Shown here: positions 12,771-32,513 of the stretch, in pieces | How positions within the stretch are numbered: the stretch's first letter is position 1 | How the letters are laid out: the number at the start of each line of letters is the position of its first letter | Source of the DNA: Anaerolineae bacterium | GTDB taxonomy: Bacteria; Chloroflexota; Anaerolineae; UBA4142; SHND01 | DNA: 32,513 nt | Assembly (NCBI GenBank): GCA_021463195.1 | Contig: JAJTXZ010000021.1 | Location: 30,483 to 62,995 of the forward strand | Reading direction: 5' to 3' | Translations under genes and position numbers: made by a program | The notes under the pieces: model-generated | Told to the model about the DNA's origin: nothing | Seen by the model: only the letters and a program-made list of their open reading frames with translations | The model's database searches: none

Positions 12771-14246
12771 TTATCGCACCTCATACACGCGCAAATTCTC
12801 CTCGCCCATTCCCCGCGTGACCGCGCAGTTTGTCGAAAAAATTTCTTGAAACGAATCATCGCCGGCTAAATTCGGATACCATGTCGGAAAGAAAATCGCG
12901 TATTGCGCGCCGCGTTCCAGCATCCACGTTTTTAATTTTGCTTCGTCCCGAATAAACGGAATCACTTCAGGCGAAACGAGACCCGCCAAATCCAGCATCG
13001 GACGGTCGGGATCAAAATATCCTTGCGCGCCAATGTCATGCGCGGCGACGCGCGCGCCCGGCGGCAAATTCGCGCGCGTGAAATGGGCGACGGCGACCAT
13101 TTCGCAATTTATAATCGCGACCGCTTGCGCGTACAACGTCGCGCCTAGAAATAGAAATACAAAAAGCAGCGCCGCGAGCGTCAGCGTCCACGCGCGACGA
13201 ATGACGCGCGCGGAAATTTTTTCAAATATAAATTTCACGCCGACGATGCCGTAAATAATCATGAACGGAATTAACGGCATCATGTAACGCCCGAATTGAT
13301 ATTCAACGGGCAGGCGCCATGCGTACAGCGCGGGCAGCGCCACAAGCCACAGCGCAGGCAAGAGTTTTTCCCACGCCCGCTTGCGCGCGAAAAAATAAAA
13401 CGCATAGATGAAACCCGGCGCCAACAATAGCTGCGCGCCAAGCAACGGCTGACGATACAGCGAGAGCCAACGCGCGAAAAAATTCGTTTGGGTGAGTTCC
13501 GCGTATTCCGCGCTTTTGGCGTAAAAGGTGTTGGGCAAAAGCGTTCCGCTAATTTGGAGATTAAAATAAAGGTACGGCAGCAACACAATGCCGAACGTAA
13601 CCGCAAACGCGGCAATGGCAGCCCAATTTGTTGCTGCGCGCAGCGCGCGCCATAACAAGCCCGCGCCAACCAGCCCCACCAACACAATTCCATCCGGGCG
13701 CGTCAACACGAGCAAGCCCGCGCCCAAGCCGAACAGCGGCGCGGCGCGTTTCGCGAGAAACGCTTCGACGAGCGCGAGCGTCAAAAAAATAAACAGCATG
13801 ATTTCCATGCCGCTCGCCGCCGCCCACACCATGTGCCATTCCAACAGCAAGAATAATGGCGCGAACCAATGCGCCGCGCGCGCGTCGTCGGTCAAATGAC
13901 TTGTGACGCGCTGCGTCATCCAGCCCGACGCGCCGAGAAATATTATTCCGAGCAGAATCGCCCACGCGAAATAATCAATTCGCAAAAGATAGCCGACGCT
14001 CAAGAGCAGCGACCACAAGGGCGATGTCGAACCCGCGCTCGGTTGGCCCGCAAAAAAGGAAAATTCAAAGCGCGCGCCGAGATTGCGCGCGTATACTTGG
14101 TGAATCCACGCGTCGTCGAGGGGAAAACCGAACGCGCCGTTTTGAAGAAACGCGACGAGGAGATACAACGTGACGACGAGGAGCGCAACGAGAAAATAAA
14201 AAGAAACGCGACGGACGGGCGACAGACGACGGACGGCGAGATTCAT
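12771..14246 (-). CDS. GT-C type integral membrane glycosyltransferase
   Basis: This 491-residue multi-spanning protein has about ten membrane segments (first at about 14-35) and an Asp-Asp pair in the first outside loop (FPLDDAWIHQ, D44-D45), the usual metal/sugar site of GT-C enzymes that use polyprenyl-phosphate sugars outside the membrane. The C-terminal 100 residues form a soluble domain with PPGARVAAHDIGAQGYF and MLDLAGL, a module also seen at the end of other transferases in this locus. The specific substrate is unknown. ATG 14246 overlaps the stop of the upstream Cache gene by 4 bp (ATGA), so the two are coupled. It is the last gene of the glycan locus, ending 40 bp from the convergent fmt. 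Confidence 0.8.
   Translation of the reverse strand: MNLAVRRLSPVRRVSFYFLVALLVVTLYLLVAFLQNGAFGFPLDDAWIHQVYARNLGARFEFSFFAGQPSAGSTSPLWSLLLSVGYLLRIDYFAWAILLGIIFLGASGWMTQRVTSHLTDDARAAHWFAPLFLLLEWHMVWAAASGMEIMLFIFLTLALVEAFLAKRAAPLFGLGAGLLVLTRPDGIVLVGLVGAGLLWRALRAATNWAAIAAFAVTFGIVLLPYLYFNLQISGTLLPNTFYAKSAEYAELTQTNFFARWLSLYRQPLLGAQLLLAPGFIYAFYFFARKRAWEKLLPALWLVALPALYAWRLPVEYQFGRYMMPLIPFMIIYGIVGVKFIFEKISARVIRRAWTLTLAALLFVFLFLGATLYAQAVAIINCEMVAVAHFTRANLPPGARVAAHDIGAQGYFDPDRPMLDLAGLVSPEVIPFIRDEAKLKTWMLERGAQYAIFFPTWYPNLAGDDSFQEIFSTNCAVTRGMGEENLRVYEVR
14209..14236 (-). repeat. Short direct repeat at the 5' end of a GT-C gene
   Basis: A 10-bp unit (CGACGGACGG on the plus strand) occurs at 14209-14218 and again at 14227-14236, period 18. 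It encodes the two VRR segments near residues 5-13 of the downstream protein. It may mark a small duplication. Confidence 0.6.
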
Positions 14247-15187
14247 AGGCGACTCGCAACGAGCGCGCCACCGAGCGCGAGGAGAATCGCGCCAAGCGCA
14301 GGGAGCGCGAACGAGGAAAAATTTTCAGCCAAGGTTGGCTGCGGCGCGAGAATCAGCGCATACCATGGTTTGGTGACTAAACGCTGCGCCGCGAACGCGC
14401 GCGCGTCAAAATCCGACGCCTGCAACTGGTCGAGCGCGCCTTGCGTCACCAACTGTTGCGCGCGGGGCAAATTGGTCGCGCGCGGCGCCAGCGCTTCCGC
14501 GCCATAGGTTTGCGCGTTGGCAATTTGCGCCGCGCGCGCGGCATCGAGCGCGCCAAACGACGACAGTCGCCGCGCCGGGTCGCCCGTATCATCCAAGCGC
14601 ACGCCGTTTTCATCGCTCAATACAGCATGCCATTTTTCGCCGCGCGGCGCGATATTCCATAGTTCTTGCGCGTCCACGCGCAGCGCCAGCGCGCCCGCGA
14701 TTTCGTCCGCGTTATTGAATATGGGCGCGGCATAGAAAAGCGAATTTTCGCCGCTGTCGCGCGACACCGCCGAGACGGCGAGCTGTCCGTTCAGGGCGTC
14801 ACGAATAAATTGACGCGACGCCAGCGCGCCGCCCCATCCATCCAGCGTGGACATGATGATTGTGCCATTGGAATCCACGATGAGCGCTTGGCGTATATTT
14901 TTGTCCGCGGCGACGAGCGCTTGCAATTCATTCAATGCCACCGCCGCGCGCTGCGAACGCGTTTCGGGCGTCGAAGCCGCGAACGCGCGGATGGAAGGAA
15001 ATGCCGTCAAGGCGAACGTTTGCTGCATCCGCAGCTGCAAGAGGCGGTCATATTCGCGCGCGAGGCGCGGCGCGATTTCTGTCAGCGAATTGGATTGTGG
15101 TGGATTGAGAACGACAAAGAGCGCGAGCGGCGCGCCCGCGATGAACAAGCAGAGGATAAAACCAAGCGCGAGTGAACGTATTTTCAC
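14243..15187 (-). CDS. Cache-type extracytoplasmic sensor protein lacking an output domain
   Basis: The 314-residue protein has an N-terminal membrane helix (about 7-27), a large outside region (about 30-285) with the pattern of a double Cache sensor (LQALVAADKNIRQALIVDSNGTIIMST, then FIRDALNGQ and SLFYAAPIFN) and a C-terminal membrane helix (about 291-312). It ends two residues after that helix: there is no HAMP, kinase, GGDEF or methyl-accepting part, which normally follows. The start is GTG 15187, overlapping the stop of the acyltransferase gene by 4 bp (GTGA), and its stop overlaps the GT-C start by 4 bp. It is thus firmly embedded in the operon rather than a broken receptor next to a lost partner. 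Family identification is from pattern only; ligand unknown. Confidence 0.65.
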   Translation of the reverse strand: MKIRSLALGFILCLFIAGAPLALFVVLNPPQSNSLTEIAPRLAREYDRLLQLRMQQTFALTAFPSIRAFAASTPETRSQRAAVALNELQALVAADKNIRQALIVDSNGTIIMSTLDGWGGALASRQFIRDALNGQLAVSAVSRDSGENSLFYAAPIFNNADEIAGALALRVDAQELWNIAPRGEKWHAVLSDENGVRLDDTGDPARRLSSFGALDAARAAQIANAQTYGAEALAPRATNLPRAQQLVTQGALDQLQASDFDARAFAAQRLVTKPWYALILAPQPTLAENFSSFALPALGAILLALGGALVASRL

Positions 15188-15858
15188 GCGTTATGCACAA
15201 GGCGCGTCTTGCGTAACTCGCGCGCGGGATTGCCGACGACGACGGTATTCGCCGCGACATTCTTCAAGACGACGCTGCCCATTCCAATTAAACTACCCGC
15301 GCCAATGACGACGCCATCTTTGATGCTCGCATTGGCGCCGAGATAACACGCTTCGCCGACGCGCACATTTCCCGAAATGGCAACGCCGCCCGCGATGCTT
15401 GTATAGTCGCCAATAACATTATCATGGCTAATGACTGTCTGCGGCAAAACAATCACGTGGTCGCCAATGACGACGTTGGAGGTGATGGTGACGTTTTGGA
15501 AAATCACAACGCCGTTGCCAATCTGCGCCGTGCGCGAGACGCTCGCTGTCGGATGAATGAGCGTCGCAAAGCGTTCGCGCGGCATTTGCGTGCGCGCAAT
15601 GATTTCGCGTTTTCTCCAAAACGAATTGATACCCGCGATGCCGTTGACGAAAAAAGAATCCGCGTATTGGGACGCGCGGTCGAGTCCGCCCAAGACGCGC
15701 GCGCCCAAAATTTCTCTGCCCCATTGTTCCGCATCGTCGTCGAGAAACCCAACACATTCGTAGACACGTTCGCCGCGCGCGGCGTTGAGGTCATTCAACG
15801 TGTCGAGGATGTCTATGGAATTTCCGCCAGCGCCGAGGATGAGGATTTTTTGGGTCAT
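15184..15858 (-). CDS. NeuD/PglD-like sugar O/N-acyltransferase
   Basis: A 224-residue enzyme of the NeuD/PglD family, which uses acetyl-CoA to acetylate an amino-sugar nucleotide or a sugar hydroxyl. The N-terminal Rossmann-like part starts with KILILGAGGN (4-13); the rest is a left-handed beta-helix of hexapeptide repeats (about 108-205), with the catalytic-type H145 in ISHDNVIGD (143-151) and the terminal VVVGNPAR (206-213). The chosen ATG (15858) matches the family start; a TTG at 15891 would add 11 residues and is rejected. TAAAAT on the minus strand lies 10 bases before the ATG, like the recJ arrangement, and no Shine-Dalgarno is seen. It begins an operon with the Cache protein and a GT-C transferase. 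Confidence 0.88.
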   Translation of the reverse strand: MTQKILILGAGGNSIDILDTLNDLNAARGERVYECVGFLDDDAEQWGREILGARVLGGLDRASQYADSFFVNGIAGINSFWRKREIIARTQMPRERFATLIHPTASVSRTAQIGNGVVIFQNVTITSNVVIGDHVIVLPQTVISHDNVIGDYTSIAGGVAISGNVRVGEACYLGANASIKDGVVIGAGSLIGMGSVVLKNVAANTVVVGNPARELRKTRLVHNA

Positions 15859-19940: not shown

Positions 19941-20519
19941 CTATCGTACCGCTTCGACACGCGTATCGCGCCATCGCCGCGCGCCATGTGTCTGTGGTTC
20001 GCCAATTATGACTGCCTGGAACCCTACGCGCTTGAGCTCAAGTTCCAAATGCCAGCTAGACCAACCAAATGCATACGGGATATACGTCCTGCGTTGTTTC
20101 AGTTGCGCGATATCAAAAGCGTAAATTCCACGAACCGCTTCGATATAATTATCCAAATCGTTTTCTCGCGCCAAAGCGGCTTGAGCGCATTTGGCAAGAT
20201 CCGGGAGCTCGATTACAAGTTTTCCGCTCGGCGTCATTAAGCGAAACAATTCACTGAACAAGTCCCGAGCTTGCCACAAAGACAAATAACTCAGCGAATG
20301 TATCATTGCCGCCTCACTTACAGATTGGGCGGCAAAAAATTCCCCAATTCGCATAAAATCAACGCATAAATCGCAATCTGCCGCAGGGTCCACGTCAATA
20401 TTCACCCATCCTTTCCAATAATCTTTGTCGCATCCAAGATGCAAACGCACCTTATCTGCGGCTTTGACAGACAAATCCATCCGCAACAAACGGCAAAGCT
20501 TTGATTTCATTCTTCCCAT
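19941..20519 (-). CDS. SAM-dependent methyltransferase-like protein
   Basis: A 192-residue protein of the short class-I methyltransferase type common in glycan loci. The SAM motif is LHLGCDKDYWKGWVNIDVDP (26-45), the form seen in predicted sugar or polysaccharide methyltransferases. It continues with a post-I region SLSYLSLWQARDLFSELFRLM and a LVIELPD strand. Length is short compared with full methyltransferases (250+). It lies 11 bp downstream of an epimerase and 39 bp upstream of a GT4 gene. Start ATG 20519 has no clear Shine-Dalgarno and ATG codons at 20510 and 20480 are possible alternatives. Substrate unknown. Confidence 0.78.
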   Translation of the reverse strand: MGRMKSKLCRLLRMDLSVKAADKVRLHLGCDKDYWKGWVNIDVDPAADCDLCVDFMRIGEFFAAQSVSEAAMIHSLSYLSLWQARDLFSELFRLMTPSGKLVIELPDLAKCAQAALARENDLDNYIEAVRGIYAFDIAQLKQRRTYIPYAFGWSSWHLELELKRVGFQAVIIGEPQTHGARRWRDTRVEAVR

Positions 20520-27226: not shown

Positions 27227-28807
27227 TTAGGGGCGCACGCGTTGATAAATTGTATATCTACCAAAAGTTTGAATTGGACGAAACGCGCCGGTGGCAATGA
27301 CCGGTTCGTACAAATGCCACACGCTGTCTCTCGGCGCGACCAAATAATCGGGGTCGCTTTGCAGCGCGTCATAATTGACAACCGCCGGCAAACCCGCCGC
27401 GCGCTTGTTCAATTCCAAATGCAGCGCGTCCGGCGGATAATGATACGCGCGATTCAAATAGATAAAGAACGGACTCTCGTACGTTTCGATGCGCGCGGTG
27501 ACGGGAGTATTTTGATTCAAAAAATCCGCCGCCGCCGCCAGCGCGCGCCCATCCGCCGCCACCAGCGTTTGATACGAAATGAACAGCGTAAGCGGAAGAT
27601 AAAACAGAATCAGCGAAAAAACAAGCCACGCGCCCAGATTTTTTCGCGTGAACCGCTTTGTCTGCAGCGGCGCGGCAATCCAAATCATTGTCGCGCGCAG
27701 CTTGAAATCGTCCGTCAAATCTCGAAACAAGAGCGCGGCAAAGGGCGCGCCGAAAAAAATCGGCGAAAAAATATAGCGCGTGATGCCGGCATGCGCCATA
27801 AAAATATACCACAACAGCCATGTCGTCGCCAAGACCCACAGCCCGATGCGTAAATCATCGTCGCGGTCTTGCAGACGCAGCCATTGTTTGCGGCGCGCGC
27901 GTTGAAACGCAAAATAGCCAAGACCCAAAATCACCGGCGTCCCCAGCAGGCCAGCGACGATAACGGCGGTCAGGCGAATCTCGAGACTGGGGACAAACCC
28001 GAGAACGAAAAGATTGGCGGGCAGCGATTGGGCGGGCAGCGTATGCCCCGTCAACGCCCAGTCAAACAAATTCGACGCCCATTGCGAGACAAAGAAACCG
28101 CCCACAAAAACAACAAGGATAGCTGCCGCAGCGCGGTAGCGCCGCGCCAAGAGATTCAAACCGAGCAGCGCCGCGCTCGTCAAAATATAAAATGGCAACA
28201 CTTGCGCTTTGGAAAGCAGCGCCGCCGCCCAAACAATAATCGCCGCGCCGTACCAGAGAGATGATTTCGCGCGCGCGAGCAAGAGACAAACGAACCCGCC
28301 CACACAAGTCAAAAATTGAAACGGTTCCGCGAACATTTGCCGCGCCATCCAAAAGGCGTTCGCGCGCGGATGCGGCGCCAACAAAATCAAAATCGCGATG
28401 GTCGCCAGCGCAATCCGCCAATGAAACAAGCGGGACAGCAACCAATAGTAGAGCGCGAGCGCCGCCGCCATCGTAATGACCGCCGCCAAGCGCCCTTGCC
28501 AAACGCCCACACCTAAAAAACGCATTGTCAGCGCGACCGAGCCGACGACCGGGAACGACGCGGATAAACCAGGCGGCGCCAATTCACCGTCGAGCAACCG
28601 ACCATAAAAGCCGCGCTCGACCCAAAGCCGCGCCGTCGCAATGGTCCAACCTTCATCCCAATCCACATCCGGCGCATCCGCTAGACGAAAGCTGACGAGA
28701 TAAAGACAAAAAAGGATGAGCGCAAAAACAATCACGCCGCGCAGCCACAGCTTGGCGCGCAGCTTGGCTAAAATCCAATGCGAATGTTTTGCGAGCGTCA
28801 AATCCAT
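27227..28807 (-). CDS. GT-C type integral membrane glycosyltransferase (ArnT/PMT-like)
   Basis: From ATG 28807 a 526-residue protein with about ten to twelve membrane helices. After the first helix (about 22-41) comes an Asp-Glu pair in DWDEGW (D51, E52), the catalytic acidic motif of ArnT/PMT-type GT-C enzymes, then alternate loops and a C-terminal soluble part (about 410-526) with FLNQNTPVTARIETYESPFF. An upstream GTG at 28858 would add 17 residues that come from repeat-like sequence, so it is rejected. The gene is 42 bp upstream of the GT2 synthase that could supply its donor. Sugar and acceptor are unknown. Confidence 0.84.
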   Translation of the reverse strand: MDLTLAKHSHWILAKLRAKLWLRGVIVFALILFCLYLVSFRLADAPDVDWDEGWTIATARLWVERGFYGRLLDGELAPPGLSASFPVVGSVALTMRFLGVGVWQGRLAAVITMAAALALYYWLLSRLFHWRIALATIAILILLAPHPRANAFWMARQMFAEPFQFLTCVGGFVCLLLARAKSSLWYGAAIIVWAAALLSKAQVLPFYILTSAALLGLNLLARRYRAAAAILVVFVGGFFVSQWASNLFDWALTGHTLPAQSLPANLFVLGFVPSLEIRLTAVIVAGLLGTPVILGLGYFAFQRARRKQWLRLQDRDDDLRIGLWVLATTWLLWYIFMAHAGITRYIFSPIFFGAPFAALLFRDLTDDFKLRATMIWIAAPLQTKRFTRKNLGAWLVFSLILFYLPLTLFISYQTLVAADGRALAAAADFLNQNTPVTARIETYESPFFIYLNRAYHYPPDALHLELNKRAAGLPAVVNYDALQSDPDYLVAPRDSVWHLYEPVIATGAFRPIQTFGRYTIYQRVRP

Positions 28808-28994
28808 CTTGCCGATTATTTTGTCACAGCGCAGCGCGCTTTCGGACGCAGCTGCCACAGCTTGACGTTTGTTTTTTCTGTGTAAATGGCGATGAACTCT
28901 GTCGCAGAAATCTGTATCCCAACAATGAACCTATGATGCGCTGTGCCACAAAACATCACAGCTTGGCAAGGCGTTCGCCAACGCCGACGCGATT
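28808..28994. repeat. Gene-free gap with degenerate intergenic repeat, copy B
   Basis: The gap begins with the same 17 bases TGTCACAGCGCAGCGCG (28822-28838) as copy A at 15961, and a following TTTGTTTTTTCTG tract. No reading frame, RNA or terminator can be supported. A small inverted piece, CACAGCTT, appears at 28856-28863 and near 28970. Confidence 0.5.
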
Positions 28995-29864: not shown

Positions 29865-31131
29865 GACGCGCCTGCTCCTTGGACCGCCGCAAATGCCGCC
29901 ACGTTTGATACAAGATCATCAAATTCAAAACGAGCAAAATCGCGCCGACGACGATGTGCGCGAACGCCGGGCCAACCAGCGACGCGGCGGAATCGAACGC
30001 CAATATCAATGGCGTATAGATCCAAACCACTCCCAAAAACGCGGCGGCGGGTAGAACCAACCACCAACGCAATACGCGCAGCGAACGAAATTCTTGCCAG
30101 CCCAAAATCATTGGCGCAAACAACAACACCGCCGTATGCACGTGACTGTGCCACGCGACCGCGAACGTCGCCGCCAAAGTCCCGAGCCACACCCACAGAT
30201 ATTTTTCCGACGCGCGCGCGTAAAACCACAGCGACAAACCCGCGAACGCCGTTATTCCAATGCCGACCAACGCCAAGCCCCAACCGATTTTGAGCGGAGC
30301 GACGCTATCCCAATTCAACGCCAACGCGCGCCAGCTCATCATGGATTCGGTAAAATTCGTCGCCACCCCTTGCGGCGCGGCAAAATTCAAGACAAGGCGC
30401 GTCCACGCCAGCATCCCGTCAACGCCCGCCAACACAACCGAAGCGACTATGAGCAAAAGCGCGACCGCTCCGAAACCGGCGAGCGCGCGCCATTTTTTTT
30501 GAATCAACAAGCCCGGCAGAATCAAAACGAGCAACTGCGGCTTGAGCAGCAAACCCGCCAGCCATGCGCCCGCCGTCGCCTCCTTGTCGCGTCCCAACGC
30601 GATCAACGCCTCGCCCAACGCGACAAATAAAATAATATCAATCTGTCCAAAAAAAAGATTAAACATGAACGGCAAACTCAAAAAAACGCCAATGCCCAAA
30701 AAAGCGTCAAACCTGGTCCGAGACGCGCGCATCAAGCGCCACACATAAGCAAGATAAAATAATCCATTCGCCGCGCTCCACAACACAAAACCCGTCATCG
30801 GGTCGAGCAAGCCAAAAGGCAGCAAGGGCGCGATGAAAATCGGCAGATACGGAATCTCGATGACCTCGACCGGTTTAGTTTGCGCCGCACGCGCGTACTG
30901 CCGGTACACCCTATCTTGAAATTCAGTCTGCCGATTCAAATCATAAACATCGGCAAAACCGTACGTGCGCGCAATCTGCGCCGATGCCCAATACACGCGA
31001 TAATCCACGCCGATATAATCGAACCAGCCGCGCGCCTGCGCGCTCACGCCAAAAAAGAGCAGATACAAGAGCGCAAGGACGACGAATAGAGAAAATCGCA
31101 AACGCCGCGCGCGAACGGAGCTGCCTCTCAC
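29851..31131 (-). CDS. GT87-like (DUF2029) integral membrane glycosyltransferase, GTG start
   Basis: A 426-residue protein with about ten to eleven helices. After the first helix (about 12-30) comes GVDYRVYW (41-48), with D43 as the catalytic-type aspartate, and later LLLKPQLLVLILP with the KPQ motif of GT87. It is a full-length partner of the truncated paralogue just downstream, and the two share the D-F/Y motif and KPQ but little else, so the duplication is not recent. It begins with GTG 31131, overlapping the stop of the upstream gene by 4 bp (GTGA). Probable donor: polyprenyl-phosphate sugar. Acceptor unknown. Confidence 0.82.
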   Translation of the reverse strand: MRGSSVRARRLRFSLFVVLALLYLLFFGVSAQARGWFDYIGVDYRVYWASAQIARTYGFADVYDLNRQTEFQDRVYRQYARAAQTKPVEVIEIPYLPIFIAPLLPFGLLDPMTGFVLWSAANGLFYLAYVWRLMRASRTRFDAFLGIGVFLSLPFMFNLFFGQIDIILFVALGEALIALGRDKEATAGAWLAGLLLKPQLLVLILPGLLIQKKWRALAGFGAVALLLIVASVVLAGVDGMLAWTRLVLNFAAPQGVATNFTESMMSWRALALNWDSVAPLKIGWGLALVGIGITAFAGLSLWFYARASEKYLWVWLGTLAATFAVAWHSHVHTAVLLFAPMILGWQEFRSLRVLRWWLVLPAAAFLGVVWIYTPLILAFDSAASLVGPAFAHIVVGAILLVLNLMILYQTWRHLRRSKEQARHAVQ

Positions 31132-32513
31132 CGTGTCACCTCAAACAAGAACACGGGCCTGCCCAATCCATCTTGGAACGTCGCCAGTGACGTCAATCCT
31201 TCCACCGCCGTCTTGCCTTCGTACAACGCGCGCAGCGTCGCGGGTTTGTCGTATTGCAGAATCAAATAGCGCGCGCCAAATTGACGCGCCGCGTCAAAAA
31301 TCGCGTCCACGCTTTCCGTCGGCAGATAAATCGAACGCCGTCCCGTTTCGTTGATAAACGACGGCGGATCAACGGTGATGATGGGAACCTCGGCCGGCAC
31401 ATTGCGCGCGTCGAGTTCGCGGTCCAGCGCCGCGTATTCAATATCGCGCTGATTCCACAACGCCGTCGTCGCCGTTTCGCCGGGCGGAAACCAAACGCCT
31501 TGCGCGTACAAGTACATGCTAAAAAAAATCGCCAACGCGATCGCGCCCCAACGAAAAAATTTTTGCGCTTGCGCGACATTCCAACGCTTGCGCCGTTTGC
31601 CGAGCCACGCGACCGCCGCGTCCAAACCGGGCGGAACCGCCACCGCGCCAAACGCGACCAATGCCGCCGCGGAATGCAGCATACTACCGTGTGTCGCCGG
31701 AAATGTAAACACAAATGCCATCATCAGCGTCAACAATGCGAGATAAATCAGCGCGACCTGCATTTCGACACGTCCGCGCATTTTCCAAAAACCCACCGCC
31801 GCGAACGGCGCCAAAAAAATTTGCCACACGCCAAACAGCAACACCAAAACGCTAAAGCCCAGCGCGGCGAATTTTGACGCGAGGATGTTGCCCAAGCCCC
31901 ACGCCAGATAGCGCTCCAAGGTCAAGCGCGCGACATCGTAACTGAAAAATTCATCGTAACTCAATAGCCACAGCGTGCGCGCGCTGCCCGACGCGAGCGG
32001 CGCGCCAATCGCAAAATAATTGCGCGCCAGCCATGGCGCCAGCGTCAGCGCAAAACCGCCCGCCGCTGCCAACACCGCGACGCCACAAAAACGCGCGGCG
32101 AGCGCGCGGCGATGCAGCCACAACAAAATCGGCAGTGTCGCCAAAATCAACAGCGCGTCCGCGCGCGCCAACTGCGACAACGCCGCCAATACACCGGCGG
32201 CAAAAAAATAACGCGCTTGCATTTGCGACACGCCCAATGCTAAACACAAGAGCGCGAAACCGGTTGTCACCGCGAACGGCGTAAAGTTATCCGGACTAAC
32301 CCAATAAATGACGTAAAAACCGCTGAACGCGGTCAACAGCCCCGCCATCCAGGCGTAATCGTCGCGTTGATACAGACGGCGCGCGAGATAAAACGCCAAC
32401 AAGGGCGGAAGCAGCGAGAGGAGAATAAATGGAATTTGCGCGGCGCGGTAGGAAACGCCAAACAGCGTCATCGAAATTCCCGCGAGGACTGAAGGCAGCG
32501 GCAGCCAATACAA
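31128..32513 (-). CDS. GT-C type integral membrane glycosyltransferase (5' end outside window)
   Basis: The reading frame is open to the window edge; TTG at 32513 is not a convincing start, so the real N-terminus (first helix and acidic loop) lies outside. The visible 461 residues show YWLPLPSVLAG (2-12), about nine or ten membrane helices and a C-terminal soluble domain (about 350-461) with PPGETATTALWNQRD and GARYLILQYDKP, the same kind of module as in the transferase at 12771. This matches ArnT/PMT-like GT-C enzymes. Its stop overlaps the following GTG by 4 bp. Confidence 0.78.
   Translation of the reverse strand: MYWLPLPSVLAGISMTLFGVSYRAAQIPFILLSLLPPLLAFYLARRLYQRDDYAWMAGLLTAFSGFYVIYWVSPDNFTPFAVTTGFALLCLALGVSQMQARYFFAAGVLAALSQLARADALLILATLPILLWLHRRALAARFCGVAVLAAAGGFALTLAPWLARNYFAIGAPLASGSARTLWLLSYDEFFSYDVARLTLERYLAWGLGNILASKFAALGFSVLVLLFGVWQIFLAPFAAVGFWKMRGRVEMQVALIYLALLTLMMAFVFTFPATHGSMLHSAAALVAFGAVAVPPGLDAAVAWLGKRRKRWNVAQAQKFFRWGAIALAIFFSMYLYAQGVWFPPGETATTALWNQRDIEYAALDRELDARNVPAEVPIITVDPPSFINETGRRSIYLPTESVDAIFDAARQFGARYLILQYDKPATLRALYEGKTAVEGLTSLATFQDGLGRPVFLFEVTR

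Follow-up and report, generated by a model that had tools for sequence, protein, structure and literature searches.

Wzz proteins are built from two transmembrane helices and one external domain. The fold of the GT-C superfamily is common to STT3/AglB, ArnT and PMT and to the enzyme that accompanies the protein described here. To our knowledge no Cache subunit of these transferases has been described, and text searches of open-access papers (most subscription papers lie outside that scope) found none, a review on c-di-GMP signalling being the one match. The passages on output domains in a 2016 survey of Cache families (PMC4822843) name SMP_2 as the only family without known output domains; all others come with them. 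There SMP_2 is described as exclusive to proteobacteria and related to DUF2222. Because outputs are assigned to all other families in these passages, a conserved lone dCache is unusual.

We analysed a stretch of 32,513 nucleotides from an Anaerolineae bacterium (the window) that codes for such a protein. It resembles SMP_2, as described in the survey passages, in that a Cache domain is seemingly cut off from its receptor; it differs in having a dCache fold and a gene tied to a GT-C enzyme. Alpha2delta and CACHD1 are likewise dCache proteins serving a membrane partner, alpha2delta contacting the calcium channel partly via its first Cache domain (as stated in a section of PMC9901441), though these are animal proteins, their partner is a channel, and alpha2delta carries a VWA domain and a lipid anchor; there is no evidence of direct descent from them. 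With the Wzz co-polymerases our protein shares the two helices, the external domain and, putatively, the partnership with a glycan membrane enzyme (for Wzz, PMC10030265), but the sequence family is another one and its top fold matches are dCache. DctB-type sensor kinases have the fold in common, whereas our protein is without HAMP, kinase or any cytoplasmic part. By analogy, the closest functional parallels would be Wzz with Wzy and alpha2delta with calcium channels, the lone Cache belonging to neither family. Since it has no signalling half and stands beside one GT-C gene wherever both genes are readable, our results suggest that it became a working partner of a GT-C enzyme in one order of Chloroflexota.

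Anatomy of the Cache protein and the adjoining GT-C enzyme

The features of the locus are as follows (window positions):

12771-14246, minus strand: GT-C superfamily membrane transferase, 491 aa, with an invariant LDDAWIHQVYARNL and a C-terminal soluble domain
14243-14246, minus strand: ATGA overlap, Cache stop and GT-C start
14243-15187, minus strand: lone double-Cache membrane protein, 314 aa, without output domain (Pfam, hydropathy, AlphaFold2 model, VIA-align)
14249-14332, minus strand: second transmembrane helix, residues 286-313, and protein end (hydropathy, model)
14333-14647, minus strand: proximal Cache lobe, residues 181-285, diverged
14648-15088, minus strand: distal Cache lobe, residues 34-180, the conserved half, with R125 and R170 at canonical pocket positions
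15107-15184, minus strand: first transmembrane helix, residues 2-27 in the model (hydropathy, model)
15184-15858, minus strand: NeuD/PglB/VioB-family sugar acetyltransferase, a neighbour outside the conserved unit

The first-pass annotation had described a Cache protein with two helices and no output domain, whose gene overlaps both neighbours by 4 bp, and this is borne out by the reading frame, hydropathy and Pfam. The frame starts with GTG and is present as a single copy in the window's genome; its overlaps are GTGA with the upstream NeuD-type acetyltransferase gene (15184-15187) and ATGA with the downstream GT-C gene. Hydropathy places the helices at about residues 8-26 and 293-311 and, together with the model, shows them to flank one external domain, as in the Wzz plan. 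The chain stops within about 3 residues of the second helix, leaving almost no cytoplasmic residues, and the cytoplasmic output domain of Cache signal-transduction receptors is absent.

Residues 34-180 match Pfam dCache_1 (PF02743, E=3.5e-9) with 37 bits against a gathering score of 45, which was passed by one of the six members scanned (L031, 65.3). At E<=1 Pfam reported neither HAMP nor any other output family, no SMP_2 and no Wzz domain (PF02706) in the Cache protein; the only non-Cache match listed is a weak one to Robl_LC7 inside the Cache region (E 0.048, below cut-off). NCBIfam gave no match, the PDB sequence search nothing useful, and a PDB profile search designed TIM barrels only. The AlphaFold2 model, based on an alignment of 13 sequences (the window protein and 12 relatives), reached a mean pLDDT of 88.6 and a pTM of 0.78 and contains, as in dCache_1, a long N-terminal helix followed by two PAS-like lobes. 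With VIA-align it superposes on the DctB sensor domain 3by9 (Z 22.6, rmsd 2.7, 244 residues), chemoreceptor domains being the next matches; Wzz is absent from the 50 fold matches listed, which does not prove a difference. Given that both lobes are seen in the model and that it superposes on DctB, the protein is predicted to be a complete double Cache, only partly recognised by the sequence profile, whose proximal lobe has drifted.

The adjoining 491-aa protein scores just over the DUF2079 cut-off in Pfam. Its model reaches a pLDDT of 74.6, with a weak part near residues 50-73, and matches AglB (Z 21.8, 403 residues), Pmt (21.1), STT3 (20.7) and ArnT (18.9), and Foldseek also returned GT-C enzymes; as modelled, the protein has a GT-C fold. 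D44 and D45 are invariant (13/13), and we take them to be the acidic residues of the first external loop that are a GT-C trait. The surrounding cluster also codes for a MurJ-family flippase, SDR enzymes, GT4- and GT2-type enzymes, methyltransferases, two GT87 and a PMT_2 protein. Judged by its flippase, SDR, glycosyltransferase and methyltransferase genes, it most likely makes an exported glycan. The cluster reaches the end of the contig (C58) at 31128-32513, and two of its proteins (27227-28858, 543 aa; 19941-20519, 192 aa) have no Pfam match. Wzz proteins are present in all 20 genomes of the order; in the window's own genome there are five Wzz-domain matches, on contigs C1, C31, C73 and C122, and none on C58.

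Distribution, age and gene order

Homologues of the Cache protein share 32-65% identity over the full length, well above chance. With a profile of 14 full-length members, the lone form was found in 16 of the 20 genomes of the order, in two of them (G013, G018) as contig-edge fragments. Among 60 relatives searched, 19 match: the strong matches are frames of 314-362 aa within the order, along with two pieces of 180 and 217 aa at contig edges; weak matches are either frames of 409-433 aa, the size of the Cache-HAMP proteins described below, or frames of 838-1389 aa. No lone Cache was seen outside the order in a class sample of 396 genomes, where matches at 1e-20 outside the order fall only in frames of 817-1261 aa. 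An evenly drawn phylum sample of 400 genomes returned, at 1e-30, only the window's own genome, a single match that says little on the order itself. Plasmids gave no match, and a single-sequence scan of genome contigs no relative; an alignment scan of these contigs found 14 loci, which lie on contigs of the same genomes and are not independent. The relatives are metagenome assemblies, in which the absence of a gene at a contig end is not evidence.

A broken gene fragment is rejected by the occurrence of the same lone form in 16 of the 20 genomes, and a recent truncation by its conservation across the order. The latter had been dismissed already in the first-pass annotation on account of the 4-bp overlaps; its conclusion stands, though the overlaps alone make a weak argument. 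Against its reading the annotation had set a gene order that is not conserved and homologues that always carry output domains. Both are contradicted, the order being conserved and the close homologues output-less.

The GT-C gene directly follows the Cache gene in all 15 order genomes with a readable junction. At 13 of the 14 complete junctions the overlap is NTGA (ATG in 7, GTG in 3 and TTG in 3); in the exception, L028, the genes overlap by a possible GTG start. Counted over the 20 genomes, the lone Cache is present in 16, the GT-C orthologue in 17 and both in 15: the contig end cuts the upstream side of the GT-C gene in G001 and G014, the Cache gene of G018 is cut where the GT-C gene would follow, and neither gene was found in G007 and G015. 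Usually fmt (on the opposite strand) and recJ come after the GT-C gene, and the Cache/GT-C/fmt/recJ block is syntenic as a whole.

Upstream of the Cache gene the content varies (acetyltransferase, radical SAM, a 643-aa protein, PMT-like and others). Among the five genus members that have a Cache gene, the acetyltransferase precedes it in four; in family f2 it does so in no genome whose upstream gene is readable. Of the three-gene arrangement that the annotation had proposed to look for in other genomes, the Cache/GT-C order is thus retained in 15/15, but the acetyltransferase does not belong to it and a three-gene unit is rejected. Because the upstream gene differs between genomes, the Cache/GT-C pair is the constant unit in an otherwise variable glycan cluster.

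GT-C matches outside the order were found in 16 genomes, of which 14 were compared (G021 and G036 were left out) and 12 have a readable upstream side (L087 and L100 are cut). None of these 12 orthologues has a Cache gene beside it, and in the stretches compared none lies beside fmt or recJ. Two GT-C paralogues, one in the window's genome (L101, 2016-3350, minus strand, 35% identity) and one in G005 (L102, 5225-6628, minus strand, 34% identity), are without a Cache gene. No Cache/GT-C fusion was seen in the order loci; a candidate 717-aa frame in L035 was rejected, as the GT-C frame merely stays open through the Cache gene in another frame.

Compared with 19 other Cache domains, the 14 lone Cache proteins form one clade (support 100/99). 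Three kinases join this clade with support of 94/88, which falls short of the starred level, and direct descent from the HAMP-only Cache family is unsupported. A quick GT-C tree, in which many forks are open and branches are long, unites the paired enzymes on one branch with the two order members cut by contig ends (SH-aLRT 98). Given one Cache clade, one branch of paired GT-Cs and GT-C orthologues outside the order without Cache, a single recruitment of the lone Cache at the base of the order is the simplest history and the probable one.

The HAMP-only proteins are a second output-less Cache family. They are TM-dCache_1-TM-HAMP proteins (L036 811-2082, minus strand; L037 4196-5422, plus; L038 4058-5323, plus; L039 4407-5675, plus; L040 4145-5428, minus; and L127) that end after HAMP with a conserved tail, QAAIERLRARR, and form a clade of their own (100/99). 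A PDB search with a Cache-HAMP protein gave HAMP matches only. Some have neighbours of the Roadblock/LC7, DUF4388 and winged-helix types or a Ras-like GTPase joined to a response regulator, several of these below the Pfam cut-off.

Conservation and the putative ligand pocket

Between the window protein and family f2, identity amounts to 43-51% in the distal lobe, 20-33% in the proximal lobe and 11-29% in the helices. Across 14 proteins, all of them with open frames, 28 columns of the distal lobe are invariant, and strong constraint on this lobe is shown at the level of the alignment. Of 52 near-invariant columns, 23 are specific to the lone clade (14 lone against 19 other Cache rows, with the duplicates L119, L128 and L130 dropped), 13 of them within residues 48-99. 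The lone clade is accordingly under a constraint of its own, which would be fitting for a partner surface or a changed ligand. As the two helices are the least conserved parts, the comparison favours a contact via the external domain over helix-helix signalling.

In an alignment with kinase and Cache-HAMP relatives, R125 is kept in 14/14 and R170 in 13/14 lone Cache proteins. Aligned by eye with the published motif, rather than by superposition of residues, they sit at the Arg and Asp positions of the amino-acid motif. In the sections that define it (PMC9901441; also PMC10104139), this dCache_1AA motif reads YxxxRxWY ... Y ... D. By eye, R125 is kept in the lone Cache, W is replaced by F and D by R170, and the Tyr positions are lost; an amino-acid-sensing motif is ruled out by the change from D to R and the missing aromatic residues, and the missing aspartate speaks against the amine motif. 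Since R170 also occurs in 10 of 13 kinases, it is inherited. Together the two pocket arginines hint at a putative anionic ligand.

Possible roles of the Cache protein

We tentatively read the Cache protein as an accessory subunit of the adjoining GT-C sugar transferase, which is possible and only a little short of probable. The protein would go back to a Cache receptor that shed its cytoplasmic half and, at the base of the order, was recruited a single time. The two proteins would be inserted together in the membrane and touch on its outer face, where the ligand of the Cache may be a small molecule, probably an anion, or else part of the glycan as it grows. The contact would raise, lower or position the transferase. 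Acting on the same face, they would need no signal to cross the membrane. Of the elements of this reading, anatomy, overlapping genes and conservation are observed and a single origin is probable; contact, ligand and effect on activity are inferred, as is the direct control in the membrane that the annotation had considered. In favour count the lone form in 16/20 genomes, the adjacency in 15/15 despite a changing upstream gene, the NTGA overlap in 13/14, the single Cache clade (100/99) and the paired GT-C branch (SH-aLRT 98), as well as both predicted dCache lobes, the GT-C fold of the partner, the conserved distal lobe with R125/R170, the lone-specific columns and the Cache-less paralogues L101 and L102. 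Against it count the GT-C relatives of other orders, which are without Cache, the unmet amino-acid motif and the lack of a fusion; moreover, the synteny with fmt and recJ means that part of the linkage may be inherited position, and co-translation is also compatible with two proteins that work on one glycan but do not touch. A narrower version, in which the protein is an external sensor of metabolites, no longer bound to transmembrane signalling, and gates the GT-C directly on the same side of the membrane, appears rather doubtful.

The main rival is a structural, Wzz-like co-factor, in which the Cache fold would act independently of any ligand, as a scaffold that forms oligomers around the transferase or keeps hold of the glycan chain. 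The plan is the same: an external domain between two helices, without output, encoded in a glycan cluster next to a polytopic enzyme. A complex of WzzE with WzyE is described in the relevant part of PMC10030265, and the lone-specific residues would suit such a role as well. Nonetheless we consider it unlikely: the protein has no Wzz match at E<=1, the order genomes already have Wzz proteins of their own (though not on C58), and the canonical pocket arginines are kept, needless for a pure scaffold. If the Cache instead bound an acceptor or donor glycan and presented it without a regulatory switch, its conserved charged residues would be accounted for, as would its location, which the folds predict to be at the membrane face of the GT-C active site; the ligands in the solved dCache matches listed are small, however (amino acids, succinate, malonate, choline), and we judge this improbable.

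Equally improbable is a role as co-receptor, in which the protein binds a ligand and teams up with a Cache kinase or a Cache-HAMP protein from elsewhere in the cell, its adjacency to the GT-C reflecting co-regulation only. Cache domains commonly dimerise, and related kinases and Cache-HAMP proteins exist in the order genomes, yet Pfam found no kinase or HAMP among 19 window proteins scanned, the linkage is always to the GT-C, and the lone clade has invariant residues of its own. Synteny with fmt and recJ might also be taken to indicate a passenger, that is a decayed receptor kept by operon position only; with 28 invariant distal-lobe columns over 14 proteins in frames open throughout, there is next to no chance of this.

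Cache domains are generally described as sensors for intracellular signalling; here a second old and conserved output-less case is found, tied to one enzyme. If the accessory-subunit reading is true, the locus would show a route from receptor domain to enzyme subunit and a testable case of environmental control over surface glycans without transcription or a kinase. The narrower version with direct gating, if true, would represent a new mode of control of extracellular glycan synthesis, and animal calcium channels with their Cache-bearing auxiliary subunits would have a counterpart in bacteria.
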